From: Hyphomicrobium album | GTDB taxonomy: Bacteria; Pseudomonadota; Alphaproteobacteria; Rhizobiales; Hyphomicrobiaceae | Reading direction: 5' to 3' | NCBI RefSeq assembly: GCF_009708035.1 | Contig: NZ_WMBQ01000001.1 | Location: 186,001 to 250,000, forward strand | DNA: 64,000 nt | Shown here: in pieces, positions 28-11,587 of the stretch | Position numbering within the stretch: the stretch's first letter is position 1 | How the letters are laid out: each line of letters begins with the position of its first letter | Notes under the pieces: model-generated | What the model saw: only the letters and a program-made list of their open reading frames with translations | What the model was told of the DNA's origin: nothing | Database searches by the model: none | Translations under genes and position numbers: made by a program

Positions 28-45
28 AGTTCCACTAGTGCAACC
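28..45. promoter_or_regulatory. 18-bp palindromic operator-like site 1
   Basis: AGTTCCACTAGTGCAACC, one of six related palindromes centred on CACTAGTG or a close variant. It lies beyond the 3' end of the minus-strand accessory operon and may serve a gene left of the window. A possible half-site (TGCACC) follows at 53-58. Confidence 0.6.
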
Positions 46-76
46 ACTTAGCTGCACCAGTTCGCATCAAAAGTGA

Positions 77-142
77 GGGCCGCCCGTACAACTGCAGCCT
101 GGAGAACGTGAGAACCCCGGCCGCGGAGTCGTAGGGCGGCCC
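77..142 (-). terminator. GC-rich inverted repeat, possible terminator of the left operon
   Basis: GGGCCGCCC at 77-85 pairs perfectly with GGGCGGCCC at 134-142. Read on the minus strand it lies about 90 nt past the stop codons at 232 and 243 and is followed by CTCACTTTTG. The 48-nt loop is long for a simple rho-independent terminator, so it may be another structured element. Nothing else is recognisable in 1-231 apart from operator site 1. Confidence 0.35.
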
Positions 143-231
143 CCGCGCTGCCAACCAACAGGGTGCGGGAGAGCAGCTAGCTCCGAGTCTCCCCGGCCTT
201 CACTGCAGCCGCACCCCTCGGGGCGCGCAAC

Positions 232-1077
232 TTACGCCGCGACTAGCGCGGTTTCTTTCTCGGTGGGCTCAGGCGGACTGCGGCCGTGATGTGGGCGGTC
301 GCCGCCTTTCCGAGGCTCTTGCTGGCCTTCGCGAGACGCCGCTCGCGCAAGGTCGCGTAAGCCCGCGACTCCTCGCTCAGTACGTCGCCCGGCTCGCTCG
401 GCTCCTGCAGGCCCATGTTGAGTTCCCGCTGGGCGTCGATTGCCTCCTTCACGGAGAACGCCGTGCCGGGGTCCAGCTCCAGCATGATCTTGGGCGGCGA
501 CGCGTTCGTCTTCGACATCGGCTTCCGTACCGCAGACTTGCGGGCATACCTGTTCGCCATAGGCGGTTAGCTCCTTGCGGATTTTGGTTGCAACAGTGGT
601 GAGGAGGTTGAGGACGGCATGGACGTGCGGAGCGCGCTTGTCGTTGAACGTCTCCGCGCTCTCCCCCAGGATACCCTTGATGCGCATGCGGATGCGTTGC
701 GTGCTCTGGTACGTCGGACCAGGCTCCGCACAGATGGCGCCGCTCGCGGGCCACTTATAGCCCTCAGCTTCGTACAGGCCGCCCACCAGGCACAGCCGCA
801 TGGCGCAACACTCGGCGGAGTATTGGGCGAGGAACCCCTGCACCCAACGGCCGGGCGTCTCGAAGATCCGCGTGGCCCCCGCAATCGTGTCGAGGTCGTC
901 GAACAGCATCCCGCGCGTGGGCGGACCAGGTGGCTCCGGTGGCGGAGTTGGCGTCTGGAGCTTGAACGCGGAAACGTCGACCATGAGAAACTCATGCATC
1001 GCCTGCGCTAGCTTCTGCATGTCGAGGAACTCCGCCACTGGCGACTTCCCGTACGTGATCGTCTCCGTCATGTTCAT
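232..1077 (-). CDS. DUF6197-like protein with overprinted C-terminal extension
   Basis: Residues about 70-170 carry the layout of two neighbouring genes (2552-2938 and 2925-3284): a G-W-x-Q-G-like segment (GRWVQGF), a CLVGG segment, then FND-x(2)-AP-H. This matches the DUF6197 pattern, with FND in place of WND. A Pro-rich linker (TPPPEPPGPP) sits near residue 45. Function is unknown. The start overlaps the upstream stop (ATGA). After about residue 173 the frame runs through the next gene (243-560), and the translated tail is Arg/Gly-rich and unlike a folded protein. A stop has probably been lost, or a one-base indel joins two frames; the functional protein is perhaps about 175 residues. Confidence 0.6.
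   Translation of the reverse strand: MNMTETITYGKSPVAEFLDMQKLAQAMHEFLMVDVSAFKLQTPTPPPEPPGPPTRGMLFDDLDTIAGATRIFETPGRWVQGFLAQYSAECCAMRLCLVGGLYEAEGYKWPASGAICAEPGPTYQSTQRIRMRIKGILGESAETFNDKRAPHVHAVLNLLTTVATKIRKELTAYGEQVCPQVCGTEADVEDERVAAQDHAGAGPRHGVLREGGNRRPAGTQHGPAGAERAGRRTERGVAGLRDLARAASREGQQEPRKGGDRPHHGRSPPEPTEKETALVAA
243..560 (-). CDS. Hypothetical basic phage protein
   Basis: A 105-residue basic protein (Lys/Arg-rich ends, no transmembrane segment) with no family I recognise. A strong ribosome site (AAGGAG, 10 nt before the ATG) and an in-frame TAA just upstream support this start and frame over the overlapping frame of the previous gene. It is the last gene of the accessory operon visible at the left of the window. 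Confidence 0.7.
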   Translation of the reverse strand: MANRYARKSAVRKPMSKTNASPPKIMLELDPGTAFSVKEAIDAQRELNMGLQEPSEPGDVLSEESRAYATLRERRLAKASKSLGKAATAHITAAVRLSPPRKKPR

Positions 1078-1346
1078 GTGCTCTCTCCGTTTGGGGCGGC
1101 CTCAGTAGCTTTCCAGTCGCGATCCGAGCGGCTCTCCTCCTGACGGGCGAGCAGCGCCTCGATACGTGCGACGCCGCGGTCAACCGCCGCCTCGATCTGA
1201 CCGATGGGGCACCGCTCAACTACCGCGGGGTAGAGATGCTCCGGTGAGAAAGTCCAATGGTGCGTATTGCAGCGGCCGACTACGGAGCTGCCGCCTGGCG
1301 AGCGCCCGTCCGCCGCTACACAATGGAAACGGATGTCGCAGCTCAT
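1074..1346 (-). CDS. Hypothetical protein, Cys/His-rich N-terminus
   Basis: A 90-residue protein. The N-terminal half holds three Cys and several His (MSCDIRFHC, then CNTHHW), which could bind metal, and the C-terminal half is a charged helix. No family recognised. The start is chosen at the ATG that overlaps the previous stop as ATGA; it also ends in ATGA with the next gene. This 4-base coupling recurs throughout the operon and argues for translational coupling. Confidence 0.6.
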   Translation of the reverse strand: MSCDIRFHCVAADGRSPGGSSVVGRCNTHHWTFSPEHLYPAVVERCPIGQIEAAVDRGVARIEALLARQEESRSDRDWKATEAAPNGEST

Positions 1347-1474
1347 GGGAACCACCACTGCGACCACTCACGGATGTAGAACACGAGCGGCGGCCCGAGG
1401 AACCCCACGGTCGCCACGAAGGCGAGGATGGAGGCGGCGCCGAAGAAGCCTCCGAAGAGGCGAGGGAAGCTCAT
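1343..1474 (-). CDS. Small single-span membrane protein
   Basis: A 43-residue peptide starting MSFPRLFGG with one long hydrophobic segment (about residues 10-33) and an aromatic end (REWSQWWFP). The start overlaps the stop of the gene at 1471-1680 by ATGA. It could be a lysis accessory or a superinfection-type membrane peptide; the sequence does not decide. A longer upstream reading of this frame has nonsense-like composition and was not used. Confidence 0.5.
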   Translation of the reverse strand: MSFPRLFGGFFGAASILAFVATVGFLGPPLVFYIREWSQWWFP

Positions 1475-1680
1475 GGCTGCAGACTCCGCGCTTCCGACTT
1501 GAGGAACTGCAGCAAGTCGTCCGCATTGGTGAAGCCCCAGCCCTGCTGCGTGTAACCGTAATCGGGGCCGCCGTACGGGATCATCGTGTACGTGCCGTCC
1601 AGCCCGGTAAGCACGCGGAAGCCGGACTTGAGGACGTTCTCGGTGGGCTTCTCGGCGGTGGTCGTCTTCGTGCAGCTCAT
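1471..1680 (-). CDS. Hypothetical small protein
   Basis: A 69-residue protein starting MSCTKTTTAEK. It is rich in Gly, Tyr and Thr in the middle (TYTMIPYGGPDYGYTQQGWGF) and ends in a short helix. No transmembrane segment and no recognised family. ATGA overlaps with the neighbours on both sides place it in the same coupled operon. Confidence 0.6.
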   Translation of the reverse strand: MSCTKTTTAEKPTENVLKSGFRVLTGLDGTYTMIPYGGPDYGYTQQGWGFTNADDLLQFLKSEARSLQP

Positions 1681-2105
1681 GGCGTCCTCCCTTCCGCTGG
1701 AGGCGCGACGGCACGGCCCGCTTCCGTCATCGGGAGGTTGCCGTCCGTCGGTGCGTAGATGATCTCGCGGTGCGAACCGGCGCGCTCGTTCGTTTCGAGC
1801 ATCATGATCCAACGCCAGCGGAGATACCGGTCGGGACCGCCAAGGCTGTCGGCGAGGACGCGGTTCGCTTCGGCGGCGCCCTTCGCGCGCTCCACTTCAG
1901 CCTGCGCATTGAGCTTCGCGGACTCCAGGGACGCGCGGGCCTCGGTCGTTTTGATCTGCCGGTTCTGCTCGGCTCGGGCCAGCTCAGCTTGGCCGGACAT
2001 CCCCTGTTGCCAGACGGAATACTCGGGACCGTACCGCATACACCCCGCGACGCTGCCCACGAAGAGCATGAGGCACACAATGACGAACGATACGATCCAG
2101 CCCAT
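1677..2105 (-). CDS. Band 7/SPFH-like lipoprotein
   Basis: 142 residues. The hydrophobic N-terminus (MGWIVSFVIVCLMLFVGS) ends in a VAGC lipobox, so the mature protein is probably a lipid-anchored envelope protein. It is followed by a long Ala/Glu/Arg-rich coiled coil (ELARAEQNR, then EVERAKGAAEANRVLADS) typical of the C-terminal part of band 7/prohibitin-like proteins, without their N-terminal core domain. The start at 2105 has AAGGAG 6 nt upstream; an upstream ATG at 2186 would place an odd polar stretch before the signal. It might act in envelope control or as an outer-membrane spanin-like partner (inference). Confidence 0.7.
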   Translation of the reverse strand: MGWIVSFVIVCLMLFVGSVAGCMRYGPEYSVWQQGMSGQAELARAEQNRQIKTTEARASLESAKLNAQAEVERAKGAAEANRVLADSLGGPDRYLRWRWIMMLETNERAGSHREIIYAPTDGNLPMTEAGRAVAPPAEGRTP

Positions 2106-2189
2106 GCGCAACTCCTTAGGTTCAGGTTCGGGGTCCAGGTGAAAGCGGACGGTGGTCTCGGGGCGAAGGAAACGCGAGGGGACCATGCG

Positions 2190-2555
2190 TCACCCAATCG
2201 GTAAGCTGTAAGGGTCCAACTCGCTCCGCAGATCCGAGACGAGCTTGCGCGTCGCCGGTTCGCACGCCGCGTGCGCCATGAAGGCCCGCGAGATACGCGC
2301 CACGTCTTCGGCGTGCACGCTGAGCAGCTTCGCGATGAGCCCATCGTCGACCATGCAGTAGAGCCGGAGGACGGCGATGAGCAGGGCGTGCTCGAACCGG
2401 TGCGATTGCTGACCGCTGAGGATGAGCGCGCGGTCGTACATGGTGTCGCGTCCGGTGAGCCGTCCGATTTCTTCGAGGGTGTGCTCAAGGGCGAGCTGCG
2501 CGAGTTGCCGCTCGTCGAGGAGATAGCCGCGGAGCACGGCAGGGAGAGTGGTCAT
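2190..2555 (-). CDS. Hypothetical helical protein
   Basis: A 121-residue, mostly helical protein starting MTTLPAVLRGY, with no membrane segment and no family I recognise. The ATG overlaps the stop of the DUF6197-like gene at 2552-2938 (ATGA), which sets the start; the frame further upstream is out-of-frame noise. An 84-nt gap separates it from the lipoprotein gene. Confidence 0.65.
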   Translation of the reverse strand: MTTLPAVLRGYLLDERQLAQLALEHTLEEIGRLTGRDTMYDRALILSGQQSHRFEHALLIAVLRLYCMVDDGLIAKLLSVHAEDVARISRAFMAHAACEPATRKLVSDLRSELDPYSLPIG

Positions 2556-2938
2556 GTGCGGAACCAGGTCCACGGCCGGATGAGGCGCTGCCACCAAAGC
2601 GCGGCAATCTCGTCTTCGACTTCGGACTCGGCGCGGCGGATGAGCGCGAGGACCTCGCCTTGCGTGCGGTGTGGGTCGTCGTTCCAATCGACCATTCCAT
2701 CACACGCGGTATCTTCACGAATGAGCGCACGCAGTCGGTCGTCAACGCAGATGTCCGCGTCGGTGGCAAACGAGGCGCCCGCGAGACACCAGGCGTAGGC
2801 GGTAGCGTGGCGATAGTTCCCACGCTCTGCGCGGTCGCGCGTCTCCGCATAAGTCCCTTGGCACCACCCGCGAGCGATGAGCCCGCGGATCGCCCGTAGG
2901 TCGAGCAGCTCGGCGCGCAAGCTCTCAAGAGTTCGCAT
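2552..2938 (-). CDS. DUF6197-like protein (paralogue 2)
   Basis: 128 residues with the family layout: GWCQGTYAE near residue 24, WCLAGASFA near 50, then VDWNDDPHRTQGEVLALI near residues 82-99. The function of this family, common in phages and actinobacteria, is not known to me. It overlaps the next paralogue (2925-3284) by 14 nt, so the two look like a diverged tandem duplication, with a third, more distant copy at 232-1077. Confidence 0.75.
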   Translation of the reverse strand: MRTLESLRAELLDLRAIRGLIARGWCQGTYAETRDRAERGNYRHATAYAWCLAGASFATDADICVDDRLRALIREDTACDGMVDWNDDPHRTQGEVLALIRRAESEVEDEIAALWWQRLIRPWTWFRT

Positions 2939-3284
2939 GGCGGCTCTCCGTGTGTGATTTGATGTCGGCCTCCACGCGCTTCACCACGCGGCGGGTGAGC
3001 CGCAGGACCTGAGTGAGTGTCCGCTCCGGCTCATCGTTCCAATCGGCGAGCGTGAGGCGTGGGACTGCCTTGTGCCCGAACAGGAGGTTCGTGAACCGCT
3101 GGTATGTTCGCTCGGGCACGCGGGCCGCCTGCAGGGCGCCCACTAGACACCGCTCCGCCTCAACCACCTGTCCGCCCTTAACAACACGGAAGGTGGCGAA
3201 CTGGCCCTGACACCAGCCGCGCCCCAGGGATGCGAGGGCTTCGAGCAGTCGGCGCCGCTCTTCAAGCAAAGACGTGACGCGCAT
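2925..3284 (-). CDS. DUF6197-like protein (paralogue 1)
   Basis: 119 residues with GRGWCQGQFA near residue 21, a CLVGAL segment in the middle and LADWNDEPERTLTQVLRL in the C-terminal half. First gene of a tightly overlapping minus-strand operon reaching down to about 243. The start is set by GGAG just upstream of the ATG at 3284. The operon's promoter should lie in 3285-3650, which also carries two operator-like palindromes. Confidence 0.72.
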   Translation of the reverse strand: MRVTSLLEERRRLLEALASLGRGWCQGQFATFRVVKGGQVVEAERCLVGALQAARVPERTYQRFTNLLFGHKAVPRLTLADWNDEPERTLTQVLRLTRRVVKRVEADIKSHTESRHANS

Positions 3285-3300
3285 AGGAACTCCGAAAGAA

Positions 3301-3392
3301 GTTTCACACCAGGAGCACCGCCGAGCGGCCTTAAGGGGAGCGCAGGACGGGGGCAACCTGCGGGCCACGCGGCGGCGCGCCTCGTGTGAAAC
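3301..3392. repeat. 9-bp perfect inverted repeat in operon leader
   Basis: GTTTCACAC at 3301-3309 and GTGTGAAAC at 3384-3392, 74 bp apart, both flanked by A-rich GAAAG-type sequence. It could fold the leader RNA upstream of 3284 or be a paired protein-binding site. Confidence 0.4.
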
Positions 3393-3595
3393 GAAAAGAA
3401 AGTTTGGCGTGGGTTGCGGCTCGTTACGCCAACTCCCACCAGGACCCGAAACCAGTGGACCGCCGCTAGCAGCGATCTCGCCCCCTATTCAGGGAGACTA
3501 CTGAGCCCTTGACCGTCTATCCGCGTCGGTCCTTGCAGCCCGGCAACTTTTTAGGCGTGGCCAGGAATGCGCCTGAGGGAGAGTGAAACACATAA

Positions 3596-3613
3596 AGTCC
3601 CACTAGTGGAACC
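3596..3613. promoter_or_regulatory. 18-bp palindromic operator-like site 2
   Basis: AGTCCCACTAGTGGAACC, followed directly by GGTT. Paired with site 3, 53 bp away centre to centre (about five helical turns), upstream of the plus-strand gene at 3705. Confidence 0.65.
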
Positions 3614-3648
3614 GGTTGTTAGTTCGTAGTTAAGACGCCGTGTGCAAT

Positions 3649-3666
3649 GGTCACACTTGTGGAACC
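3649..3666. promoter_or_regulatory. 18-bp palindromic operator-like site 3
   Basis: GGTCACACTTGTGGAACC, with outer GGT/ACC arms conserved and CACTTGTG at the centre. It lies 39 bp before the start of the plus-strand gene at 3705, where a bound protein would block initiation. Confidence 0.65.
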
Positions 3667-3704
3667 ATATTGCAGTCGGTGTGCGTAGTGTGTAGTGAGG
3701 CGTG

Positions 3705-3995
3705 ATGATTACGGATGACCTATGCGCCGAGTTCGAAGCGCTGCTCCAGAAGGCGCACAGCTCGGAGACGTATGTCCCACCGGCTGAGCTGATGGTCTAC
3801 GCCGTCAAGTTCCTCCACATGAAGGCGGACGACATCGACCACACGCACCTATGGCCGGACGACAAGCATGCGCGTCTCGATCTGGCGAATGAGTTCCTGA
3901 AGAAGCACCTAGCGTGGAGGCTTCAGCGCCTCATCGAAGAATTGGGGAACGAGCGTCGGCACAACGCCCTCCCCATGAACCGCGACGTTGCCTAA
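3705..3995 (+). CDS. Hypothetical acidic protein
   Basis: A 96-residue, mostly helical acidic protein with several His (FLHMKADDIDHTHLWPDDKH). No family recognised. The ATG at 3705 has GAGG 4 nt upstream and is preferred over the adjacent GTG at 3702. It is one of the few plus-strand genes of the prophage and stands behind two operator-like palindromes, so it may be expressed in the lysogen or early after induction (inference). Confidence 0.6.
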   Translation: MITDDLCAEFEALLQKAHSSETYVPPAELMVYAVKFLHMKADDIDHTHLWPDDKHARLDLANEFLKKHLAWRLQRLIEELGNERRHNALPMNRDVA

Positions 3996-4090
3996 GCCTG
4001 ACTCCCGTCTAGGCAGCACGCGGACAAAAGGGCGAAGGGGTCACCGGACGACTCCTTCGCTCTCCCCATAAACCGCGGGAGGCGCCGCCA

Positions 4091-4282
4091 ATGGCTCACA
4101 CCCCCGACAACTGCCCCGGCTGCGCATCCGACCGCACCCTCCTCGGGTACGGCGGATGGCTGCTCCTCGGGGACACCGTTGCGCCGGTCCCGTGTGGCGT
4201 CTGTAACCCGGACGGCCGGTTCACGCGTAAGGCGGGTGAGGCACTCCGTGACCAAGCGCGCCCTCCCCATAAAGCGGACTAG
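4091..4282 (+). CDS. Small zinc-ribbon protein
   Basis: 63 residues with CPGC near residue 8 and CGVC near residue 35, a C-x2-C...C-x2-C zinc-binding layout. GGGAGG lies upstream of the ATG. Short proteins of this kind in phages often bind nucleic acid or host proteins; the role here is unknown. It follows the 3705 gene on the same strand after 95 nt that contain an imperfect hairpin (GCGAAGG...CCTTCGC, 4033-4061), and its stop overlaps the end of the convergent minus-strand gene. Confidence 0.6.
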   Translation: MAHTPDNCPGCASDRTLLGYGGWLLLGDTVAPVPCGVCNPDGRFTRKAGEALRDQARPPHKAD

Positions 4283-4677
4283 CGGTTAGCAAGCCGTTTG
4301 ATCGTGTCGAGCGCATCGCGCGCCATCCGATCCGGGAGTGTCATCGCGAAGCTATCGGGCGCAGGGCGGGCCATGTAGAGGGTCGCCGCCTGGAGCCGCG
4401 TTAGGGCGTCGCGTGCCTCGCCCCACGCGTCTTCATTGAAGTACAAGCGAACGTCGAGCCCCTTGCACCATTGCTGAATGGTCACGTTCTGCCGCTCCGT
4501 GCGCTCGACGGCGCGGGCCAGATTAAGGGCGCTGTCAAGTGTCCCGCGAAGGGAGAGCCCGCCAACCTCCAGCTCCTCTAGCAACTCCCGTGCGCGGCCC
4601 CATTCGAGTATCTGTGTGGTCAACGCCGCCTCGATACCTGCGATAGCGCCCGGAACAATCTTGCGTGGCTTTGGCAT
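4279..4677 (-). CDS. Hypothetical helical protein
   Basis: A 132-residue helical protein starting MPKPRKIVPGAIAG; no motif recognised. The start is set downstream of a hairpin terminator (4706-4731), since longer versions of the frame run through that hairpin and have nonsense-like composition. Last gene of the minus-strand group that begins at 6857. Confidence 0.6.
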   Translation of the reverse strand: MPKPRKIVPGAIAGIEAALTTQILEWGRARELLEELEVGGLSLRGTLDSALNLARAVERTERQNVTIQQWCKGLDVRLYFNEDAWGEARDALTRLQAATLYMARPAPDSFAMTLPDRMARDALDTIKRLANR

Positions 4678-4705
4678 GGTGTTTCCCGTAGCAGAGACAA
4701 AAAGA

Positions 4706-4731: not shown

Positions 4732-4751
4732 CTTGAGTGAGAGCGCGCGGC

Positions 4752-5633
4752 CTAGATGCGCATGGGCATGAGCACCACGTACGCCCCAGCATCGCCAACA
4801 CGCCACATGCCAGGACCGAAGCTGTCGTCCTCCGGCAGGCTCAGCGTCACGAGCGTGCCGCCGTACCGTTCTTCCCGCCACTTGTCGCGGTGCAGCTCGG
4901 CGAAGGCCTTCACGATGTCCGCCGCGTACCCTGCCTGATACCCAACTTCGAAGTTGCGAGCCACGGCCACGCCCGTGTCAATGGTGGTCGAGTGCGTAAT
5001 GTCGACGTGGCCCGCGCGAAGCGTTGCGAAGTGCTTGCGCTCAAGCTTGAGGGTGCCCCCGGTGCCGCCTTCGGTGTTGCCAGCGATGCGCACGGCGTAC
5101 CCACGGTCATACGCGGCAAGCACGTTGAACACTTCGCGGGCGTCTTCGGCGTGCCAGTGGAGAGACGGCAGCACGTCGCGCGGGACCACGCGTTGCCAGT
5201 CCGGGAAGGTGGCGTCGAGCGGCTTGAACGACTCGTGACCAGCGAAGAGAAGAGTGGACGGCCCTGCGTTGGACTGAGGGTGCGCGAAGTGGACGGCGTA
5301 CGTCTTGTCCCGTTGCTTGCCCTTGGTGTTGTACGTCTTCAGGATCTTGGCCACGTCGTCACGCTTGAGGAGGAACTGATAGGTGAGCCCGTCCGGCGTA
5401 CCCTTCGGGCTCAGCGGATAGTTATGCAAGCGATGCCCGTCCGTCGACACCGCCACGAGCCCTGCAGGGTTCCAGTAGATGCAAACGGTGTTGAGGTAGT
5501 ACCGCGTCTCCTCAGTGGAGATAGCCGGGCGGCAGAACTTGAGGGCCTCCACAAGGGAAGCAAGCGGCCCCGTGACTGAGGGCGCGGCGGTGGCGTTGTC
5601 CGTGATGCGTGCTTTCTTGGTGTGGATGGTCAT
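4752..5633 (-). CDS. Two-domain DnaN/beta sliding-clamp-like protein
   Basis: 293 residues. Residues about 24-70 match the start of domain II of bacterial beta clamps (VEALKF, TRYYLN, VSTDGHRL). Residues about 139-151 match the domain II/III border (DATFPDWQRVVP, compare DGRFPDYRRVLP in E. coli DnaN). The protein ends VVLMPMRI, like the DnaN C-terminus YVVMPMRL. DnaN usually has three domains and about 366 residues; domain I appears missing. If it forms a ring, two domains per subunit would suit a trimer (inference). T7-type polymerases normally use host thioredoxin for processivity, so a clamp homologue here is unexpected. It could also be a decoy for host clamp-binding proteins. A terminator follows the gene. 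Confidence 0.82.
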   Translation of the reverse strand: MTIHTKKARITDNATAAPSVTGPLASLVEALKFCRPAISTEETRYYLNTVCIYWNPAGLVAVSTDGHRLHNYPLSPKGTPDGLTYQFLLKRDDVAKILKTYNTKGKQRDKTYAVHFAHPQSNAGPSTLLFAGHESFKPLDATFPDWQRVVPRDVLPSLHWHAEDAREVFNVLAAYDRGYAVRIAGNTEGGTGGTLKLERKHFATLRAGHVDITHSTTIDTGVAVARNFEVGYQAGYAADIVKAFAELHRDKWREERYGGTLVTLSLPEDDSFGPGMWRVGDAGAYVVLMPMRI

Positions 5634-5636
5634 AGC

Positions 5637-6353
5637 TCAGCCCTCCACGGCGGTGTTGCGGAACAGGTCCGCGTGGATGCTCTGGACAACGCTGTCCATG
5701 TAGATCGCTTGGCCGGTGGTGGTGCGCGCCCAAATGGTGAGCCCGTGCCAGTCGCGGACGACGCGTTCGCCCGCCGCTTCGAGCTTGTCGGCGAACCATT
5801 CGGACACAATCCAGTGCTCATAGACTTCGCCGGAGTATTCGGACACGTCCACGCGGCACGCCTCAAGCGCCCCGATGGCGGCTTCCTGTTTGGTGTCCCA
5901 CGTGGCGCCCTCACGGCCACCAGGTCCCGTCCAGGTCCATTCGTCCGCGCCGACTTCAATGAGCGTGATGTCGTTCTCGGCACACGCCTCATCATAGTCC
6001 GGCATGGGCGTCCATAAGTCGATGCGCGCGTCCTCTTCATTGTCGTCCCAGGTGTGAACCTGAGCGTGCGACGTGGCGTCATACACAAGGGTCGAGACGC
6101 AATAGACGACTTCGCGGGCAACAAGGTCGGCGACCGTAAGGCGCGGCGCCTCAGGCTCCGGCGTGACGATGTACGCGAGCGCGCCGCAGTCATCCTCGGG
6201 GCATTCGCCCGCGGGAACCGTGCCGCCAGCCTCAAGGCGTTCTTGAGCGTCGCTGATGGCGTTTACGTCGTCTTCCGTTCCGGTCCAGCCGCAGTTGTCG
6301 CAGCGGCAGGGGCGGGCGGTCTCAGTGGTGCGTTGGATATAGAGTTGGGTCAT
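5637..6353 (-). CDS. Conserved plasmid/phage protein with N-terminal zinc ribbon
   Basis: 238 residues. The N-terminus has CRCDNCGWTG followed about 30 residues later by CPEDDCG, a zinc-ribbon layout. The C-terminus (EVYEHWIVSEWFADKL, then GLTIWARTTTGQAI) matches a conserved domain frequent in proteobacterial plasmids and prophages, whose role is not known to me. The start has GAGGAG upstream inside a 24-nt sequence shared with the gene starting at 6857. Three nt separate it from the clamp-like gene, so the two are probably cotranscribed. Confidence 0.75.
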   Translation of the reverse strand: MTQLYIQRTTETARPCRCDNCGWTGTEDDVNAISDAQERLEAGGTVPAGECPEDDCGALAYIVTPEPEAPRLTVADLVAREVVYCVSTLVYDATSHAQVHTWDDNEEDARIDLWTPMPDYDEACAENDITLIEVGADEWTWTGPGGREGATWDTKQEAAIGALEACRVDVSEYSGEVYEHWIVSEWFADKLEAAGERVVRDWHGLTIWARTTTGQAIYMDSVVQSIHADLFRNTAVEG

Positions 6354-6430: not shown

Positions 6431-6670
6431 TTAGTCGAGATTGGGAAGGGTGCGGCCTTCCACGATATGGTCAAAGATGCACGTAAGCAGGCTGGCCACC
6501 GTGCCCCACTGGACGACGTAGCGCAGACCAGCGGCGCGCTCGTGAGCGTAATCGCGCACCGCCAACACAACAGCAGACGCACCGTGGCGGCCTATGAGTT
6601 GCCGCACGGCCGTCCGTAGCTCGACATACTCAGATGCGCGGATGAGGCGTGCTTGTTCTGTGTTGCTCAT
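6431..6670 (-). CDS. Hypothetical small helical protein
   Basis: A 79-residue protein starting MSNTEQARLIR, helical, with a hydrophobic middle (ASAVVLAVRDYA) but no clear membrane span. No family recognised. The start lies 10 nt after the stop of the small gene at 6681-6857; upstream reading in this frame is not protein-like. Confidence 0.6.
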   Translation of the reverse strand: MSNTEQARLIRASEYVELRTAVRQLIGRHGASAVVLAVRDYAHERAAGLRYVVQWGTVASLLTCIFDHIVEGRTLPNLD

Positions 6671-6680
6671 GGTGTCCCCC

Positions 6681-6857
6681 TCAGTGTGCGCCGAGGGCGG
6701 CGAGAACGGCGCGACGCGTATACGTGCCGTCCGGCTCGCGGTTGACGAACGCGGGCGGGTTGCCGTCATGGCGGAACACCACGAGGCACACGCCATTGCC
6801 CACGCTGGCGGTGAAGCCGTGGCGGGCGATCATGTCGAGTGTCTGATTAAGGTCCAT
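6681..6857 (-). CDS. Hypothetical 58-residue protein
   Basis: A short frame from ATG at 6857 to TGA at 6681-6683, starting MDLNQTLDMIARHGF and ending AVLAALGAH. The middle (VGNGVCLVVFRHDGNPPAFVN) reads like a small beta-rich domain. GAGGAG precedes the ATG within the repeated leader (6855-6878). It is the first gene of the minus-strand group that follows operator site 4. No family recognised. Confidence 0.6.
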   Translation of the reverse strand: MDLNQTLDMIARHGFTASVGNGVCLVVFRHDGNPPAFVNREPDGTYTRRAVLAALGAH

Positions 6858-6878: not shown

Positions 6879-6938
6879 GTTTGCATCAGTGTCACCGAAC
6901 GTTAGCGCGCCCGGTACACACCCAATGTAAGCCTGAAT

Positions 6939-6956
6939 GGTTACACAAGTGCAACC
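6939..6956. promoter_or_regulatory. 18-bp palindromic operator-like site 4
   Basis: GGTTACACAAGTGCAACC, upstream of the minus-strand group starting at 6857. On that strand a TTGCAC hexamer that could serve as a -35 box lies inside the palindrome, so binding would repress the group (inference). Confidence 0.65.
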
Positions 6957-6973
6957 ACCTAAACGAGGTCCGT

Positions 6974-7162
6974 TGGATTACGCCAACGTGTGTTGCGCAA
7001 GTGGGACACACTGAGCAAAACAAATAGATGGCTGAGACAGACACACGCTGTCACGCGTGGCGGGTGCGCCCTGCAACACGGCCGCCTGGTGCAGCCCAAC
7101 GGAGTAGCAATCCGCTGGTAAGCCAATGATTGCGGGCGTTCGGCACCGCTTGGCGTAATCCA
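6974..7162. repeat. Perfect 13-bp inverted repeat in long intergenic region
   Basis: TGGATTACGCCAA at 6974-6986 and TTGGCGTAATCCA at 7150-7162. It sits in the 546-bp gene-free stretch 6858-7403, between operator sites 4 and 5. The stretch also holds a related TGGCGTAAAACG at 7164-7175 and a GC palindrome (GGTTCGCGCGCGCGAGCC, 7271-7288). No convincing gene was found in it. It could be a control region, a replication origin or a pair of recombination/integration arm sites. Confidence 0.55.
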
Positions 7163-7352
7163 CTGGCGTAAAACGTCGGAAAGCCCGTGCGCCTCCCCAT
7201 AGCGTCCCGCAAATCGACGGCAACGGGTTATCCGCAAGGGGCAACGCGGCCGGGCGAACGGGCACGGGGGGTTCGCGCGCGCGAGCCTCCTTATTAAAGG
7301 CCCTCAGACTTCTGACCCCAAATTACTCGGGCAATTAGTGACGGACTAATAC

Positions 7353-7370
7353 AGTTCCACTAGTGTGACC
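7353..7370. promoter_or_regulatory. 18-bp palindromic operator-like site 5
   Basis: AGTTCCACTAGTGTGACC, 33 bp before the plus-strand start at 7404, directly after an A/T-rich TAATAC. The position suits autoregulation of the regulator gene at 7573. Confidence 0.65.
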
Positions 7371-7403
7371 GTGCACATCCTGATTCCGGTAAGGACAGCC
7401 CCG

Positions 7404-7709
7404 ATGCGTTTCCACCGAAGCTTTTCCTTGTTCAAGCGCGAGGTCATCCTCTGGCGTGAGCCGTCCCACGAAAGTCTATGGTATATCAACCGCGACGACG
7501 ACGACGTGAACTTCTCCGTGGGCCGCATTCGGGGTATCGTCACGCCGATTCTGCCAGAACACCCGGTTAGTGATGAGCGACCTAAAGAAGACTCTGGCCC
7601 TGACGAAGGCCCGGGACATCCAGGAGCTGTTCCGCGAGATAGATCCTCTGATCCCCTCGCAGCGAATACAATTGATTTTGGAAGTCATGCTGCGCGAAGG
7701 AGAATTTAG
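7404..7709 (+). CDS. Hypothetical protein upstream of the winged-helix regulator
   Basis: 101 residues starting MRFHRSFSLFKREVILW. The first 55 residues look protein-like (SLWYINRDDDDVNFSVGRI); the rest overlaps the regulator gene at 7573 and is Asp/Pro/Gly-rich. AAGGA lies 8 nt upstream of the ATG. It may be a short leader gene whose long tail is incidental. No family recognised. Confidence 0.45.
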   Translation: MRFHRSFSLFKREVILWREPSHESLWYINRDDDDVNFSVGRIRGIVTPILPEHPVSDERPKEDSGPDEGPGHPGAVPRDRSSDPLAANTIDFGSHAARRRI

Positions 7710-7956
7710 CCCGACCTCAGCGGCACGCCGTGTGGGCATCGCCAAGTCGTCGGCGCATCGGCACGTGATGATGTGCACAACGATCGGACTTCCCCACATT
7801 CAAACAGCGGGGTACGGCCTGATAGCGATGCGGGAGGAGCCCCAGACGGGCGTAGGCGGCAGGAAGCTGAAGACGTTCGTCTGGAGACTCTACCTCACCG
7901 ACCGCGGGCGACGCTTGATGGCGGATATTGTGCGTATCATGTCGCGTGCGAATTAG
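7573..7956 (+). CDS. Winged-helix transcriptional regulator (MarR-like)
   Basis: 127 residues. A helix-turn-helix at about residues 48-70 (SPTSAARRVGIAKSSAHRHV) is followed by a wing with a Gly/Arg-rich turn (GVGGRKLK) and a final LTDRGRRLM helix, as in MarR-type wHTH proteins. ATG at 7573 is preferred over the adjacent GTG at 7570. It lies on the plus strand against the phage's main direction, behind operator-like site 5, and converges on the minus-strand gene at 7953 (4-nt end overlap). It is a candidate lysogeny or early-gene regulator; the palindrome may be its own site (inference). Confidence 0.68.
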   Translation: MSDLKKTLALTKARDIQELFREIDPLIPSQRIQLILEVMLREGEFSPTSAARRVGIAKSSAHRHVMMCTTIGLPHIQTAGYGLIAMREEPQTGVGGRKLKTFVWRLYLTDRGRRLMADIVRIMSRAN

Positions 7957-8348
7957 GCCCTAGCCATCACCCCAGCTCTCCCACAGCGGTAGCGGATGAC
8001 GTACCAACCGGGGTGCTCTTCCTTCCACTTCACTAGCTCGATCTGAGCACGCATGGCGCACGCGTACACCGTGAGGCCCGGCTCCATGAACACCACGGGT
8101 GGATGCTCAAGGCACACGCGCGGGTCCGGCCGGTAGCACGCCTTGATGTGCAGCTCGATCGGACGCACAAGCGGCTCTCCCTTAGCGGGTGACGCCTCAC
8201 GGGCAAACGCGAGGATGACCATGCCGACGATGAGCGCCCACGCGAGGACGGCGAGTAGCACCCGCCGCCAACTCGGGAGGCCACTCTTGGGGACGCCGGG
8301 GCGCTGCTCGTAGTTCTCCCAATGTCGTTCGTTGGCGTGACGCTTCAT
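7953..8348 (-). CDS. Single-pass membrane protein, periplasmic Cys-containing domain
   Basis: 131 residues. Cytoplasmic N-terminus, one membrane span at about residues 28-49 (VLLAVLAWALIVGMVILAFA), then an exported domain with four Cys (ACYRPDPRVCLEHP, VYACAMR, RYRCGR), suggesting disulphides. The ATG at 8348 has GAGAGGA upstream; the earlier ATG at 8387 overlaps the preceding gene and lacks one. Its place after the spanin-like gene suggests a role in lysis or envelope modification, unproven. Confidence 0.65.
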   Translation of the reverse strand: MKRHANERHWENYEQRPGVPKSGLPSWRRVLLAVLAWALIVGMVILAFAREASPAKGEPLVRPIELHIKACYRPDPRVCLEHPPVVFMEPGLTVYACAMRAQIELVKWKEEHPGWYVIRYRCGRAGVMARA

Positions 8349-8373
8349 TACTGTCCTCTCTCCCATCAGGGAA

Positions 8374-8652
8374 TCAGCCGGGGTCAATGCCGTGCTTCAC
8401 CAGGAGGGCGCGCAGGTGGGCGACCTCTGTCTCCAGCTCAAGCACACGGGCGCCGCGCTGCAGGACGGTGACTTCGAGTTCATGGATGAGTGCGCGGAGC
8501 CGTTCGATCTCGGCGGTGAGCGCTATGTTCTGCTGGAAGAGGGCTTCTCGGATGCGCTGCTCGCGGAGGCCAGCGTCACGTATGACACCGTAGACTGCGG
8601 CGAGCGTTGCGCCTGCGAAGCCGATGAAGACCCCGATCGTTCCTGCGTCCAC
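8374..8652 (-). CDS. Spanin-like protein (membrane anchor plus coiled coil)
   Basis: 92 residues: an N-terminal hydrophobic span (TIGVFIGFAGATLAAVYGVI, about residues 5-24) followed by a continuous Leu/Glu/Arg heptad region to the end (EIERLRALIHELEVTVLQRG, LELETEVAHLRALL). This is the shape of an inner-membrane (Rz-type) spanin, and it lies in the late region beyond the large terminase. No nested outer-membrane lipoprotein partner was seen. A membrane-anchored virion-associated coil is an alternative. Its ATG overlaps the stop of the preceding gene. Confidence 0.55.
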   Translation of the reverse strand: MDAGTIGVFIGFAGATLAAVYGVIRDAGLREQRIREALFQQNIALTAEIERLRALIHELEVTVLQRGARVLELETEVAHLRALLVKHGIDPG

Positions 8653-9293
8653 TAGGCTTCCGTGGCCGTGATCTTGAGTACGGTGTCATTCGGCGTGTTG
8701 CTCGCACCAGCGAGCGTCTCGCGGACGGTGACCTCGTACTCGCCTGCGGCGGTCGCTACGGCACCAGCGACGATGTTCGTTCCGGTCAGCTTGAAGCGGT
8801 TGCCCGCCGTGCCGGTGAGGCTGAGTGACGATCCGGTCGTCTTACCCTGCAGAGCGCCGACAACGGTGTCCTCGGCTGAAGCTTCCTCGATTTCGTTCGC
8901 GTCGAGCGACAGCGGGACCAGCGTGACGCCAGCACGTTCGACCAGCGCCGCGGCAACGGAGAACTCTCCCACCGCAATGACGGATAGGCCCGCACCGGTC
9001 GTGACTTTCCACGCGCCGTTGATGGACTTCCATCCGAGCGGGATGAAGAAGGGGGCGAGACTGTCGAGGCTAGCGGTGCCCCCTGCGAACACCGTTGTGG
9101 AGGCGGCGTTGTCGAGGACGGCGATCGCTCCCGCGTCGACCGTTGTTGGGACGACGAGGAGGCCTGCGATGTAGTCGCCCACCGCGCCTGCGGCACCTAG
9201 TATGGCCGCGGTCTGGGAGGCGGCAACAGCTACGCGTTGGCCGGTCTGACCAACGTGGCGGCGAAGCGGTACGTCGGGATTGGGGAATGCCAT
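8652..9293 (-). CDS. Putative virion decoration/fibre protein with cadherin-like domain
   Basis: 213 residues starting MAFPNPDVPLRRHVG. The first 110 residues are Ala/Gly/Val-rich beta sequence. The second half (SAEDTVVGALQGKT ... NRFKLTGTNIVAG ... EYEVTVRETLAGA) follows the repeat pattern of cadherin/Ig-like adhesion domains. Good ribosome site (AGGAAAGG). It is preceded by a 160-bp gap with direct repeats that may be a phage promoter, consistent with a strongly expressed structural protein. A capsid decoration or tail accessory role is likely. Confidence 0.6.
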   Translation of the reverse strand: MAFPNPDVPLRRHVGQTGQRVAVAASQTAAILGAAGAVGDYIAGLLVVPTTVDAGAIAVLDNAASTTVFAGGTASLDSLAPFFIPLGWKSINGAWKVTTGAGLSVIAVGEFSVAAALVERAGVTLVPLSLDANEIEEASAEDTVVGALQGKTTGSSLSLTGTAGNRFKLTGTNIVAGAVATAAGEYEVTVRETLAGASNTPNDTVLKITATEA

Positions 9294-9334
9294 GAGAACC
9301 TTTCCTGCGAGTGAGGTAAGTTGAAATGACTTCT

Positions 9335-9428
9335 ACTTGAGACAACACCTAAGGGTGACGCCGGAGTAGGGAGTGCGTGCGTAATACGACTACGCACCTC
9401 CCCCACTTGAGGAGGACACCTAAGGGCG
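9335..9428 (-). promoter_or_regulatory. Tandem direct repeats, candidate phage late promoter region
   Basis: Two related elements 70 bp apart on the plus strand, at 9335-9357 and 9405-9428, share ACTTGAG...ACACCTAAGGG(T/C)G; on the minus (coding) strand they read C(A/G)CCCTTAGGTGT...CTCAAGT. A shorter match (CACCTTTGGGTG) lies before the capsid gene at 28831-28842. Between the two repeats is a 7-bp stem hairpin, GTGCGTA/TACGCAC (9377-9397). They are candidates for recognition sites of the phage RNA polymerase. Confidence 0.4.
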
Positions 9429-9453
9429 GACCCTAGAGTCTCCCTTAAGAGTC

Positions 9454-9732
9454 TCACCTTCGCTTGGTGGGCTTTCTCTTCGCTCGGGGCGTCCCTTTGG
9501 AGGGGCGGGTGGCGGTCCTCTTCCGGCCACGCCGTAAGGCGGCTTTGCGGAGGAACCCGATGCCGTCCCGCGTCTTGCGGTAGAGGGGCTCGCCCTCAAC
9601 GTCGAGGATGCCGGTGAACTCGTATTCGTCCTCGTTCTCGTAGACCTGCAGATCGGGGACGTTGGCGTACTCCGTGTAGTCGTCGACCGGGACGAGGGCG
9701 CCCCTGCGCTTGATGCGCCGTATCTTCTTCAC
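9454..9732 (-). CDS. Hypothetical basic protein
   Basis: 92 residues. Basic start (MKKIRRIKRRG), an acidic beta-rich middle (YENEDEYEFTGILDVEGEP) and an extremely basic tail of Arg, Lys, Thr and Pro (TKRR at the end), suggesting nucleic-acid binding. The ATG overlaps the large terminase stop, so it is translated after it. No family recognised; it could be a packaging or DNA-condensing accessory. Confidence 0.6.
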   Translation of the reverse strand: MKKIRRIKRRGALVPVDDYTEYANVPDLQVYENEDEYEFTGILDVEGEPLYRKTRDGIGFLRKAALRRGRKRTATRPSKGTPRAKRKPTKRR

Positions 9733-11513
9733 ACCATGTCCATTCGCTTGTTGCCGCCTCGGGCTCGGACCACTTGGCGGGCTTGCTCCAGGTTGAGGCC
9801 TATCGCGAAGCCATCGGTCGAGATGTCCGCGTGGAACGCGAGTTCGTACGCGTCGAGGGCGAGCTGTTCCTGCCGGTCCTTGATGCGCTGGTCGGCGTCC
9901 ATGCCGATCTTGTCAGTCCAGTACTTGACGGCGCCCGCGAGTGCGTCGAGCCGGTCGTCCTGCGCGAGCGAGCCCTTCTCCTTCGTGAGGCGCGAGAGCT
10001 GATAGAAGAGCTGGTATCGGAGCGCCTTGTCGGGCGGCAGATGCTTGGTCGAGGCGCGGTCGTTCTTAATGACTGACGGGTCGACGATGAGACGATGCGA
10101 GTTGAGCACCGGCTCTAGCGTGCTGATGATCCGCAGCTCCTTGGTCCGCGAGACCTTCACCTCCTCGATCGTGACGGGGTAGTGCTTCGCCATGACCGGC
10201 CGGAGGAGTGCGGTGAACATGCCGTCACCGAAGTTGTCCTCGATCTGCACCAGGTTGATCGCATGGTCCTTGGCCAGCTTGGCGAGTCCCTCAAGCGTCT
10301 CCGGTTCGTAGCCGCCTTGGAAGCCTCCGGCGCCCGGCAGGTACAAGTACCCGTTGAGCATCTTGATAACGGCCCAAGCGGTTTCGTCTTTGCCGCGGCC
10401 CGATGGGTCGATGTAGAGGAGCGAGCCCGTGTACGGGAGCCACTCGCCGAACTGCGTAGCCGCGCGATAGTACCGGTCGCCGGAGAGGCCCACGCATTCG
10501 AGGTCCTGTACGACGTACTCGGGGTTGCCACTCCAGACGATCTTTTCGGGCGCCACGTCGGGGTTGCACGCGAACACCACCAGGTCGCTGAGCTTGAGGG
10601 GATAGCGGTCCTGGTCGCTGAGGCGTGTGTCGAGCATGAACTGCAGCGCGAAGCCGGAACGGCCGTACGACAACTCACGCTCAAGGAGGTCCTCGTGGTC
10701 GAACCTCACGGCGTCCGTGGGCTTACCGCCGAGGTCTGGATTCTTCTCCAGCGCGAGCGCGACGATCGGCGCGAGCGTGTCGCCGTACGTCTTCGCTACG
10801 TCCTCGGCTTTGGGGTAACGGGCGGGCCACACGCGGATCTCGTAACCGCGCGCGGGCATCTTGTTATAGAGCGACTCTTCAGTCTGCGGAGTGCCGAGGT
10901 AGTCGATTGAACCACCCGGCTTGAGGATGGCGTCGAACTCCTTCACGCGCTCCGCGAGCTTGTCGCGCATCTGCTGCGTTTCGGAGTTGTTCGGGACTTC
11001 CACGTCGTCCGGGATGATGCGGTTCGCGCGCGAGCCGGTGAGCTGACCGAAGACGCCAACGGACTTCACGCTCGGGGAGTGATCCGGCATGGCCGGTCCC
11101 ACGTCGAACGCGATCATGGACTGGCGTTGATCGGGCCTCGGACGGAGGTGCGCGAGGAGCGGCATTTCGGAGATGAGCCGCAGGGTGAAGGTGGAGAACT
11201 GGTCGGCGCGATCCTTCGAGGCGGACACCACGAGGATCTTCTCTTGGGGGTCACGAAGCAGGAGCCAGCAGACGAACGCGGACGTGATCCACGACTTACC
11301 AACGCCGCGGTACGCCTCAATGATCTTTCGCCGGGGGCCGTGCTGGAGGTACTTTGCGATGTCGTATTGGAGGGGCGTGGGCTCGGGTAATTCGAGGAAC
11401 CTCCAGACGTGAAACAGGAAGTACCGGAAGTCCTCGAAGATCCGCCAATCGTCTTTCTCGAAAGCCTCGCGCCACCACTTGCCACGGTATTTAGCCGCGC
11501 TGGGGTGAGCCAT
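9729..11513 (-). CDS. terL: Terminase large subunit (T7 gp19-like)
   Basis: 594 residues, like T7 gp19 (586). It is the ATP-driven packaging motor and nuclease that works with TerS at the portal. Walker A near residue 68 (YRGVGKSW), an ILVVSASKDRADQFS segment, Walker B-like IIPDDVEVPNNSET, and a nuclease segment with LLYIDPSGRGKDETAWAVI. AAGGA lies upstream of the ATG. Two plus-strand genes and an operator-like site separate it from the small terminase, which is unusual for T7-like order. Confidence 0.95.
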   Translation of the reverse strand: MAHPSAAKYRGKWWREAFEKDDWRIFEDFRYFLFHVWRFLELPEPTPLQYDIAKYLQHGPRRKIIEAYRGVGKSWITSAFVCWLLLRDPQEKILVVSASKDRADQFSTFTLRLISEMPLLAHLRPRPDQRQSMIAFDVGPAMPDHSPSVKSVGVFGQLTGSRANRIIPDDVEVPNNSETQQMRDKLAERVKEFDAILKPGGSIDYLGTPQTEESLYNKMPARGYEIRVWPARYPKAEDVAKTYGDTLAPIVALALEKNPDLGGKPTDAVRFDHEDLLERELSYGRSGFALQFMLDTRLSDQDRYPLKLSDLVVFACNPDVAPEKIVWSGNPEYVVQDLECVGLSGDRYYRAATQFGEWLPYTGSLLYIDPSGRGKDETAWAVIKMLNGYLYLPGAGGFQGGYEPETLEGLAKLAKDHAINLVQIEDNFGDGMFTALLRPVMAKHYPVTIEEVKVSRTKELRIISTLEPVLNSHRLIVDPSVIKNDRASTKHLPPDKALRYQLFYQLSRLTKEKGSLAQDDRLDALAGAVKYWTDKIGMDADQRIKDRQEQLALDAYELAFHADISTDGFAIGLNLEQARQVVRARGGNKRMDMV

Positions 11514-11569
11514 GCGTTCCTTGCTTGTTAATCAGGGTGCGAATAGCGGGCCGTACAGCGCCGCAGAAC

Positions 11570-11587
11570 CGTTGCACTAGTGGAACC
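11570..11587. promoter_or_regulatory. 18-bp palindromic operator-like site 6
   Basis: CGTTGCACTAGTGGAACC, between the divergent large terminase and the XRE-like gene at 11649, 61 bp before the latter's start. A flanking GAACC at 11566-11570 extends the similarity. Confidence 0.65.

Follow-up and report, generated by a model that had tools for sequence, protein, structure and literature searches.

The window analysed here, a 64,000-nucleotide stretch of the Hyphomicrobium album genome, contains part of a 45.7-kb T7-like prophage integrated in a tRNA-Tyr gene. The anatomy of the prophage was established from selected genes: a single-subunit T7-type RNA polymerase is present together with a T7-type DNA polymerase, primase-helicase, portal, capsid and terminase. 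The prophage runs past the left edge of the window: ahead of window position 1 lie the integrase gene, at 1.1-2.4 kb, and attL, at about 3.1 kb. Six palindromic sites occupy the left 14.7 kb of the prophage (Table 1), and none was found before (to attR) or behind the RNA polymerase gene. The gene of P0002, the MarR-like protein proposed below as the repressor, is located ~9 kb from the integrase gene on the opposite strand, and the slot upstream of the integrase is held by the membrane-like winged helix-turn-helix protein P0001. The prophage is rewired: the proposed repressor gene lies apart from the integrase and the polymerase is without a site. Promoters of the phage's own polymerase were sought in the prophage as a repeated intergenic motif and none were found.

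Table 1. Palindromic sites, weaker matches and selected genes of the prophage (window positions unless L005 is given).
Feature	Position	Strand	Remarks
Site 1, AGTTCCACTAGTGCAACC	28..45		precedes the leftward gene pair P0001-integrase (start at window position -58) by ~85 nt
Site 2, AGTCCCACTAGTGGAACC	3596..3613		flanked on one side by leftward early genes; overlap with the -10 of a leftward promoter prediction
Site 3, GGTCACACTTGTGGAACC	3649..3666		spaced 53 bp from site 2; rightward ORF 3705-3995 has its ATG 38 nt downstream
Leftward early genes past site 4	small ORF from about 6857 (by eye), 6431-6796, 5637-6353, clamp-like 4752-5633	-	
Weak match, GTTTGCATCAGTGTCACC	6879..6896		PWM 9.7; may be an auxiliary site, 60 bp from site 4
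Site 4, GGTTACACAAGTGCAACC	6939..6956		upstream of leftward early genes
Weak seventh site, TGTTGCGCAAGTGGGACA	6991..7008		PWM 11.2, best non-site within the window; 52 bp from site 4
Site 5, AGTTCCACTAGTGTGACC	7353..7370		in the leader of a rightward ORF (ATG 7404) and of P0002
P0002, proposed repressor (MarR-like, winged-helix)	7573..7956	+	PHROG 9665, E 3.4e-6
Terminase large subunit (T7 gp19 type)	9729..11513	-	
Site 6, CGTTGCACTAGTGGAACC	11570..11587		separates the leftward terminase gene from rightward P0003
P0003, 109-aa protein, rival candidate regulator	11649..11978	+	HTH-like by eye; no Pfam, PHROG, NCBIfam or PDB match
T7-type single-subunit RNA polymerase	39731..42232	-	
attR	42503..42557	+	55-bp copy of the tRNA-Tyr gene 3' part; identical to attL at L005:16796-16850
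Tyrosine integrase	L005:17531-18799	-	lies behind P0001

The six 18-bp palindromes reported in the initial annotation were all recovered at their positions, each with one or two mismatches to GGTTNCACTAGTGNAACC. In shuffles of the window, matches with no more than three mismatches averaged 0.06 versus the six observed (largest of 100 shuffles, 1), and in shuffles of the prophage (n=300) those with no more than two mismatches averaged 0.007. Within the 3,908,169-base genome, seven places matched with three mismatches or fewer, namely the six sites and a single three-mismatch place at C1:993437. This genome scan bore out the absence of the palindromes from host DNA: they are specific to the prophage and do not occur at similar density in the host. 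With a position matrix the six sites scored 24.4-27.4, the next best match in the window and four further stretches scoring 13.1. When the motif was chosen freely, the six-site set emerged as the top palindrome family of the prophage, with a score of 31 including the weak seventh member at 6991 (maximum in 200 shuffles, 18). Claims are based on the intergenic version of the palindrome search; GC-rich coding noise swamped the non-intergenic version, which together with the matrix scans contributed only extra members to the site lists. Both arms of the sites are conserved, five complementary position pairs being invariant in 6/6 sites.

The sites had further been described as all intergenic and as missing from the late region, which holds in part. 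No convincing gene was seen over site 1, but the GTG start listed for ORF 7365-7709 falls within site 5; likewise, no site lies between 11.6 kb and attR, but site 6 precedes the terminase gene, 56 nt ahead of its start. A crude ORF caller labelled site 1 as coding in two runs. The likelier start of ORF 7365-7709 is the ATG at 7404. Promoter prediction at the prophage sites was weak: four of the 12 site-strands reached the 95th percentile, two of these representing one promoter, the promoter predicted in the P0002 leader remained below this percentile, and a TTGACA-spacer arrangement occurred at 0/12 site-strands.

P0002 was the sole match (E 2.4e-9) among 557 ORFs to an HMM made from the MarR regulators of 13 other phages or prophages, and its comparison with the phage MarR profile by hhalign gave an E of 1.2e-9. 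A PDB profile search with P0002 also returned MarR proteins. Its AlphaFold2 model shows a MarR fold (pLDDT 91.3) with the order H-H-H-H-E-E-H; the model obtained from P0002 alone (pLDDT 47) was set aside. The nearest structures to the model in BFVD were phage MarR proteins, and the top PDB rows found by Foldseek belonged to the MarR family, yet with an E of 1e-3 and a TM of about 0.5. As modelled, P0002 has a MarR-family winged helix with helical dimerisation ends, and the dimer itself is predicted. Its identity to the 13 other MarR proteins is only 14-30%; no relatives were found in viral contigs, in genome contigs or, by tblastn, in phage records, and in 103 family genomes only P0002 itself was found. 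PHROG 9665 matched 90 of 385 class genomes, although this model also matches 7/14 control genomes, and among 15 genome regions examined after the scan a terminase match was present in G413 only.

MarR proteins bind palindromic operators of 16-20 bp, and the window sites fit these in size and symmetry. P0002 is the candidate reader of the sites because it is the only ORF matching the MarR family proposed for lysogeny control in temperate T7-like phages, and the location of site 5 in the leader of the P0002 operon counts for P0002 as the repressor. The initial annotation had named the proteins encoded at 7573 and 11649 as possible binders; the former is the probable repressor, whereas the latter, P0003, showed no relationship to the MarR family.

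Comparable site sets were found in several related T7-like phages that carry integrase and MarR genes. Dispersed intergenic 18-bp palindromes occur in MarR-bearing LUZ100, RHEph01, G060, G413 and Pasto, each set above all 100 shuffles. The core TNCAC-NN-GTGNA is common to the site consensus of the window prophage, LUZ100, RHEph01, HTVC200P and HTVC119P, with single-letter variants at some sites. In LUZ100 the palindrome (CTATCCACCAGCGCATAA for P1/P2) fills the -35/-10 spacer of the host promoters P1 and P2, which were identified by mapping of transcription start sites, and in G413 a palindrome occupies a promoter spacer in the same way. Sites at or just before the terminase start were found in the window prophage, LUZ100, RHEph01, G413 and G060. 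To the eye, the Pasto repeats are similar to the T7 promoter core, and Pasto was counted as ambiguous. In P-SSP7, CRP-227, G1039, G874, YIMV22061 and three pelagiphages, all of which have MarR, the free search revealed no dispersed family that exceeded shuffles. CRP-227 showed a local tandem repeat only. The lytic phage SP6, without a MarR match, has seven dispersed palindromes; thus, dispersed palindromes do not prove lysogeny control. Around the terminase genes of viral contigs, families above shuffles, mostly local repeats, were no rarer without MarR in view (13/31 loci) than with it (5/19 loci). The core pattern occurred in 69 stretches of viral contigs with one palindrome each and in none with two, which was read as chance.

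Of 19 T7-like genomes or loci with MarR, 16 have a palindrome starting 0-3 nt behind the RNA polymerase stop codon (background 21%, p 8e-9), versus 1 of 12 without a MarR match in the stretches examined. The 0-3 nt window was chosen after inspection of 22 of 28 sequences; of the six sequences new to it, the three with MarR (L101, L110 and L155) were all positive and L130, L123 and L142 were all negative. Three added genomes (G604, G027 and G024; 60, 60 and 40 kb examined) had neither a MarR match nor a palindrome. tblastn detected no MarR in T7, SP6, phiKMV, gh-1, ProddE, G933, L130, L123 and L142, the L and G stretches being partial, so that a MarR gene could lie outside them. Four loci (L085, L137, L150 and L158) were excluded from the count since their polymerase match failed the end rule, and the polymerase of G629 is cut by a contig end. 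HTVC200P and HTVC119P are near-identical behind the stop codon, and the Pasto palindrome, counted at offset 3, does not belong to its main family, the start of which is 14 nt past the stop. In the shuffle comparison of seed families, in which the observed count is inflated by one as the seed counts itself, the families of HTVC200P, CRP-227 and G613 were not beyond shuffles (reached in 8, 7 and 6 of 100), whereas that of HTVC019P was reached in 2/100 and that of HTVC119P in 1/100. The members of the YIMV family at this position are heterogeneous.

It is unlikely that the sites are operators of another prophage regulator, namely P0003, encoded beside site 6, or P0001, whose gene is preceded by site 1. 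Both genes are flanked by a site, and P0001, membrane-like with a C-terminal winged helix and a sub-threshold MarR_2 match at residues 321-365, is encoded just ahead of the integrase, where the MarR gene usually stands. However, the phage MarR profile is matched by neither P0001 (probability 4.7) nor P0003 (0.1), and the operator core is shared with MarR-bearing phages. Moreover, in the same-genus genome G033, which encodes a P0001 of 67% identity, the surrounding 20 kb contain no such palindrome (best PWM 11.7 versus at least 24.4). P0003 had no tblastn match at E 0.01 in the comparison sequences and no relatives in viral contigs, and its one weak relative (34%, G036) is also without such a palindrome in the 20 kb examined (best PWM 9.9).

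The palindromes could also be phage-polymerase promoters or promoter-linked repeats like those of the T7 promoter family or SP6, which we consider very unlikely. The palindrome search does pick up quasi-palindromic T7 promoters, three of the seven SP6 palindromes (6092, 6263 and 14254) lie by eye just upstream of SP6-promoter-like sequences, and the likeness of the Pasto repeats to the T7 promoter core points the same way. The prophage sites, however, are symmetric with both arms conserved, in contrast to asymmetric promoter repeats, and they are confined to the early region and one position before the terminase, none standing at middle or other late genes that the phage polymerase must read. 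In LUZ100, the mapped phage promoters (7/8 with ATTACCACACAG) are unlike the palindromes. Least credible is an action in RNA, as a terminator or RNase III site, or in recombination or replication (Int/Xis arm sites, origin). On the minus strand, site 2 does read as a weak hairpin of terminator type. However, of the nine pair positions, four lack pairing in at least two of the six sites, without compensatory changes and with five positions invariant, which identifies the motif as DNA letters and not an RNA hairpin, and the sites lie away from att, where the flanking repeats have a different sequence, TAGCGTA. The RNA-hairpin, phage-promoter and Int-arm readings were thus tested and set aside.

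The reading of the sites as distributed repressor operators is well supported, the binding itself being predicted, and the six palindromes probably serve as operators for P0002, a MarR-type repressor encoded by the prophage itself. We infer that P0002 binds to them and represses by binding. A P0002 dimer would occupy each 18-bp site, and bound P0002 would repress the early promoters driven by the host polymerase, its own operon and the divergent region of the terminase and P0003, so that early genes, and hence lytic growth, would be kept off in the lysogen. Integration would add a second lock: it leaves the phage RNA polymerase gene beside attR, and the early promoters, which would stand ahead of this gene on the circular phage genome, are some 30-45 kb away.

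The site set resembles the stoperators of the cluster A mycobacteriophages L5 and Bxb1 in that many repressor sites are scattered over one phage genome and the repressor's own gene is among the targets. Stoperators, however, also stop elongation, whereas the prophage sites are, as far as seen, near gene starts; and stoperators are asymmetric 13-bp sites mostly in one orientation (PMC6550527), so that the likeness drawn in the initial annotation does not extend to the 18-bp palindromes found here. Phages of the LUZ100, Pasto and HTVC019P type share with the window prophage a T7-type RNA polymerase, an integrase, a tRNA attachment site, a MarR-like regulator, palindromes near early promoters and the terminase and, in LUZ100 and RHEph01, the operator core. 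There are differences: the MarR gene of LUZ100 is directly upstream of and co-oriented with the integrase gene, a placement that no definition makes universal, and the hypothesis in the literature places MarR sites on both flanks of a promoter upstream of the RNA polymerase, where the window prophage has no site. Lytic Autographiviridae also have a recurring near-palindromic intergenic motif at conserved slots (T7 promoters, SP6 palindromes), but the T7 repeats are asymmetric promoters and those of SP6 have another sequence, with no MarR found. The initial annotation had argued that T7-like phages are normally strictly lytic and that the circuit would be a new one for lysogeny; this is unsupported because MarR-type control of temperate T7-like phages has already been proposed in print for LUZ100 and Pasto. 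For LUZ100, no stable lysogens were obtained, and MarR sites were put forward as a hypothesis only.

Temperate T7-like phages might share an old MarR immunity with operators across the genome, derived from an ancestral 18-bp palindrome at fixed slots, of which the window prophage would be a rewired offshoot and P-SSP7 a decayed end; we put this forward tentatively, at slightly less than an even chance. If so, the ancestral core would be TNCAC-NN-GTGNA, and the slots would be the early-promoter spacers, the position just behind the RNA polymerase stop codon and the terminase start, the letters of the sites changing with the repressor while the slots stay. The window prophage would then have lost the polymerase slot, moved its repressor away from the integrase and come to rely on integration to part the polymerase from the early promoters, and the cyanophage P-SSP7, which kept MarR and integrase and in which no operator family was found, would be the decayed end of the line. 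The concrete operator sequences, two of them inside mapped LUZ100 promoters, open the lysogeny switch to EMSA and reporter tests. The sites may also provide a sequence sign that distinguishes temperate-capable from truly lytic relatives of T7, which is relevant to the choice of phages for therapy.

The six 18-bp palindromes that the initial annotation had reported in this T7-like prophage were found where they had been placed, each with 1–2 mismatches to GGTTNCACTAGTGNAACC. Shuffled windows contained a mean of 0.06 matches and none of 100 shuffles reached six. Absence of the motif from host DNA was likewise borne out, the complete host genome containing one further place within three mismatches. 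When a position matrix was run over the window plus four other stretches, the six sites scored 24.4–27.4 and everything else at most 13.1. When no motif was preset, the six sites and a weak seventh (6991-7008) formed the top palindrome family of the prophage intergenic DNA (score 31 vs. a maximum of 18 in 200 shuffles), and the set was also the strongest repeated intergenic motif at the word lengths tried. Sites 2 and 3 are spaced by 53 bp, and site 4 has weak companion matches at distances of 52 and 60 bp. Positions 2, 3, 6, 7, and 8 and their partners are invariant in all six sites, while pairs 1/18, 4/15, 5/14, and 9/10 are often non-complementary. These pairs break without compensation while the invariant positions stay fixed, a pattern characteristic of a DNA palindrome read by a protein; the reading as RNA hairpin was discarded for want of compensatory changes.

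The window starts inside the prophage; integrase, P0001 (a protein encoded beside the integrase), and attL lie upstream, in the region L005:16766-18799 of the preceding stretch. The att repeat delimits a prophage of ~45.7 kb (host contig positions 182,896-228,557). Around the circle, the terminase is followed by early genes, integrase, att, RNA polymerase, replication, and structure. All six sites fall within the left 14.7 kb, five between terminase and integrase and site 6 just upstream of the terminase.

Features of the prophage (window coordinates unless L005, the stretch before the window, is named)
Feature	Position	Remarks
Sites 1–6	28, 3596, 3649, 6939, 7353, 11570	start positions
P0002	7573-7956 (+)	MarR-like regulator
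P0003	11649-11978 (+)	small protein beside site 6
Tyrosine integrase	L005, upstream of window	profile matches
P0001, 380 aa	L005:18700-19842	by eye, the N-terminus looks membrane-like and the middle coiled; winged helix at the C-terminus, sub-threshold MarR_2 match
tRNA-Tyr gene	L005, upstream of window	attL site
attR	42503-42557	repeat of last 55 bp of tRNA-Tyr gene; 55 bp common to attL and attR
T7-type RNA polymerase	right end of prophage	
Primase-helicase, DNA polymerase, SSB, portal, capsid, terminase	in prophage	scan of selected genes

Eight TAGCGTA repeats occur in the prophage; two lie beside each att site (window -3030 and -2998, in L005; 42376 and 42393) and look like integrase arm-type sites. 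Repeats of the CCTAAGGG type at 9340-9460, beside the terminase, resemble the repeats adjoining T7-like terminal repeats, and the packaged phage ends may lie there. ARAGORN called a tRNA-Leu(taa) at 37709-37780 (+), amid minus-strand genes, which is likely a false positive, although a tRNA-Leu is annotated in the phages LUZ100, Pasto, Lo5R7ANS, and YIMV22061. Though the phage polymerase is encoded, no repeated motif that could be a promoter for it was found at 11.6–42.2 kb.

Three proteins were compared with a profile of phage MarR regulators (LUZ100, RHEph01, CRP-227, Pasto, Lo5R7ANS, three pelagiphages, P-SSP7, and YIMV22061). P0003 did not match (E 0.48) and P0001 barely did (E 0.0086, probability 4.7). 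P0001 matches occur in 18 of 103 family genomes, this one included; in the same-genus genome G033, which gave no match to P0002 or to a T7-type polymerase, the 20 kb examined around a 67%-identical relative lack this palindrome. P0002 matched the profile at E 1.2e-9 (probability 96) and PHROG 9665 'transcriptional regulator' at E 3.4e-6, and was the sole match of an HMM built from 13 regulators, itself left out, among 557 prophage and window ORFs with a minimum length of 40 aa. Its AlphaFold2 model (16 aligned sequences, pLDDT 91.3) has a MarR-like order of elements; the best viral structure matches were phage MarR proteins (E 6.6e-9), and the top PDB matches were of the MarR family but modest (E 1e-3, TM ~0.5). 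In two genome regions (L197 with L198, L203 with L204) a MarR of the same family lies ~0.6 kb before a homologue of the prophage clamp-like protein; no T7-like terminase or polymerase match was found there.

Intergenic DNA of related phages was searched by the same method against 100 shuffles per phage. Among MarR-bearing genomes, the families of LUZ100, RHEph01, Pasto, and the bacterial genomes G060 (of the same family as the host) and G413 exceeded all shuffles; that of Lo5R7ANS was matched or beaten in 1/100. CRP-227 exceeded them, but by a local tandem repeat, and YIMV22061, HTVC019P, HTVC200P, HTVC119P, P-SSP7, G1039, and G874 had no family beyond shuffles. Without MarR, T7 (through its own promoters), SP6, and ProddE and gh-1 (three members each, those of gh-1 including the terminal repeat) went beyond shuffles, as did G933 beyond 10 shuffles (three members within 200 bp), and phiKMV did not. 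Since MarR-less phages such as SP6 also exceed shuffles, a palindrome family by itself is not diagnostic. Of 86 fetched terminase loci, which reach no more than ~10 kb to either side, the 50 with a length of 9 kb or more were surveyed: 5/19 with MarR in view went beyond 20 shuffles vs. 13/31 without, mostly by local repeats. A clear case of a dispersed set is the MarR- and integrase-bearing stretch L080, in which GGTGCAGTCAACTGCACC-like sites occur four times. The T7-like viral contig L123 carries eight clustered GTGTCAAATANNTGAC-like palindromes (3759-3824 and 7172-7310). Lytic SP6 (L265) has seven near-perfect TGTCTAACATGTTGGACA palindromes (492, 6092, 6263, 8546, 9382, 14254, and 30568), three just upstream of SP6-promoter-like sequences.

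The sites of this prophage, LUZ100, RHEph01, HTVC200P, and HTVC119P have the consensus TNCAC-NN-GTGNA, from which some sites depart by one letter (for example, several LUZ100 sites read GCG instead of GTG, and sites 2 and 3 here have C in place of T at position 4). The HTVC119P palindrome at 4207 (GTATTCACTAGTGTAACT), between integrase and polymerase, agrees with our consensus in 13 of 16 specified letters. The 18-bp frame is kept, with different letters, in G060 (TCAC-N4-GTGA), G413 (GTTCC-N6-GGAAC), Lo5R7ANS, and L080. Scanned across 17 other phages with a 14-bit minimum, our full-length matrix found 0–3 places per phage, and broad mutual recognition was limited to LUZ100 and RHEph01 (7 and 6 sites); by this sequence comparison, full-length matrices are phage-specific.

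Positions recur. An 18-bp palindrome with no more than four of its nine pairs broken starts 0–3 nt behind the RNA-polymerase stop in 16 of 19 MarR-bearing genomes or loci (background 21%, binomial p 8e-9); under a limit of three broken pairs the count is 9/19 (background 5.4%, p 2e-7). Both p-values err on the optimistic side, since the 19 include two near-identical pelagiphages and the 0–3 nt window was fixed once 22 of the sequences had been inspected with 0–30 nt. In genomes or loci whose examined DNA gave no MarR, the two counts were 1/12 (SP6) and 0/12. Six new loci agreed: 3/3 with MarR were positive and 3/3 without were negative. The MarR-bearing exceptions are P-SSP7, G1039, and this prophage, in which the next ATG follows the polymerase stop codon within 10 nt. 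Integration parts the polymerase gene from the early region, and such separation would make a polymerase-proximal operator dispensable. Palindromes also lie at the terminase start: one overlaps it in LUZ100 and one directly precedes it in RHEph01 and in G413, while the upstream distance is 35 nt in G060 and 56 nt here; Pasto has no site there. Within promoters, a palindrome sits between TTGACA and TAAGAT of the LUZ100 host promoters P1 and P2 (annotated in the record; derived from mapped starts in its paper), between TTGACT and TATCTT in G413, and, LUZ100-like, between TTGACA and TAAGCT in G1039. A strict spacer count gave 4/126 site-strands in eight genomes or loci vs. 18/6,400 random intergenic position-strands, P1 and P2 being near-duplicates and the G1039 arrangement not passing; this prophage contributed 0/12.

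A P0002 dimer most likely binds the sites and, by analogy with LUZ100, would most likely repress promoters read by the host polymerase in the early region, at its own operon, and at the terminase/P0003 junction. Sigma-70-like minus-strand promoters near sites 1, 2/3, and 4 score no lower than the 95th percentile for windows drawn at random from the prophage (4/12 site-strands, two being one promoter); the eight remaining site-strands, that of the P0002 leader among them, fall below it, and scanning with a simple consensus turned up a single promoter, away from the sites.

PMC10134795 describes T7-related prophages as widespread, cites the proposal that a MarR-like regulator adjoining the integrase controls lysogeny, and attributes to Boeckman et al. 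(2022) the hypothesis of sites flanking the polymerase promoter; 'palindrom', 'inverted repeat', and 'operator' are absent from its main text. According to passages of PMC8776855, T7-like cyanophages integrate without stable lysogeny and have no homologue of known lysogeny repressors. Our search of the freely accessible literature found no report of a distributed operator or palindrome set in temperate Autographiviridae. The reported sites are real and their predicted reading as repressor operators is probably right, while the proposed 'new lysogeny circuit' reduces to a rewired variant of a MarR-type control that is, as far as seen, still a proposal. The wider pattern, in which MarR-bearing T7-like phages carry palindromic operators at the same conserved places, seems more valuable than the single prophage.
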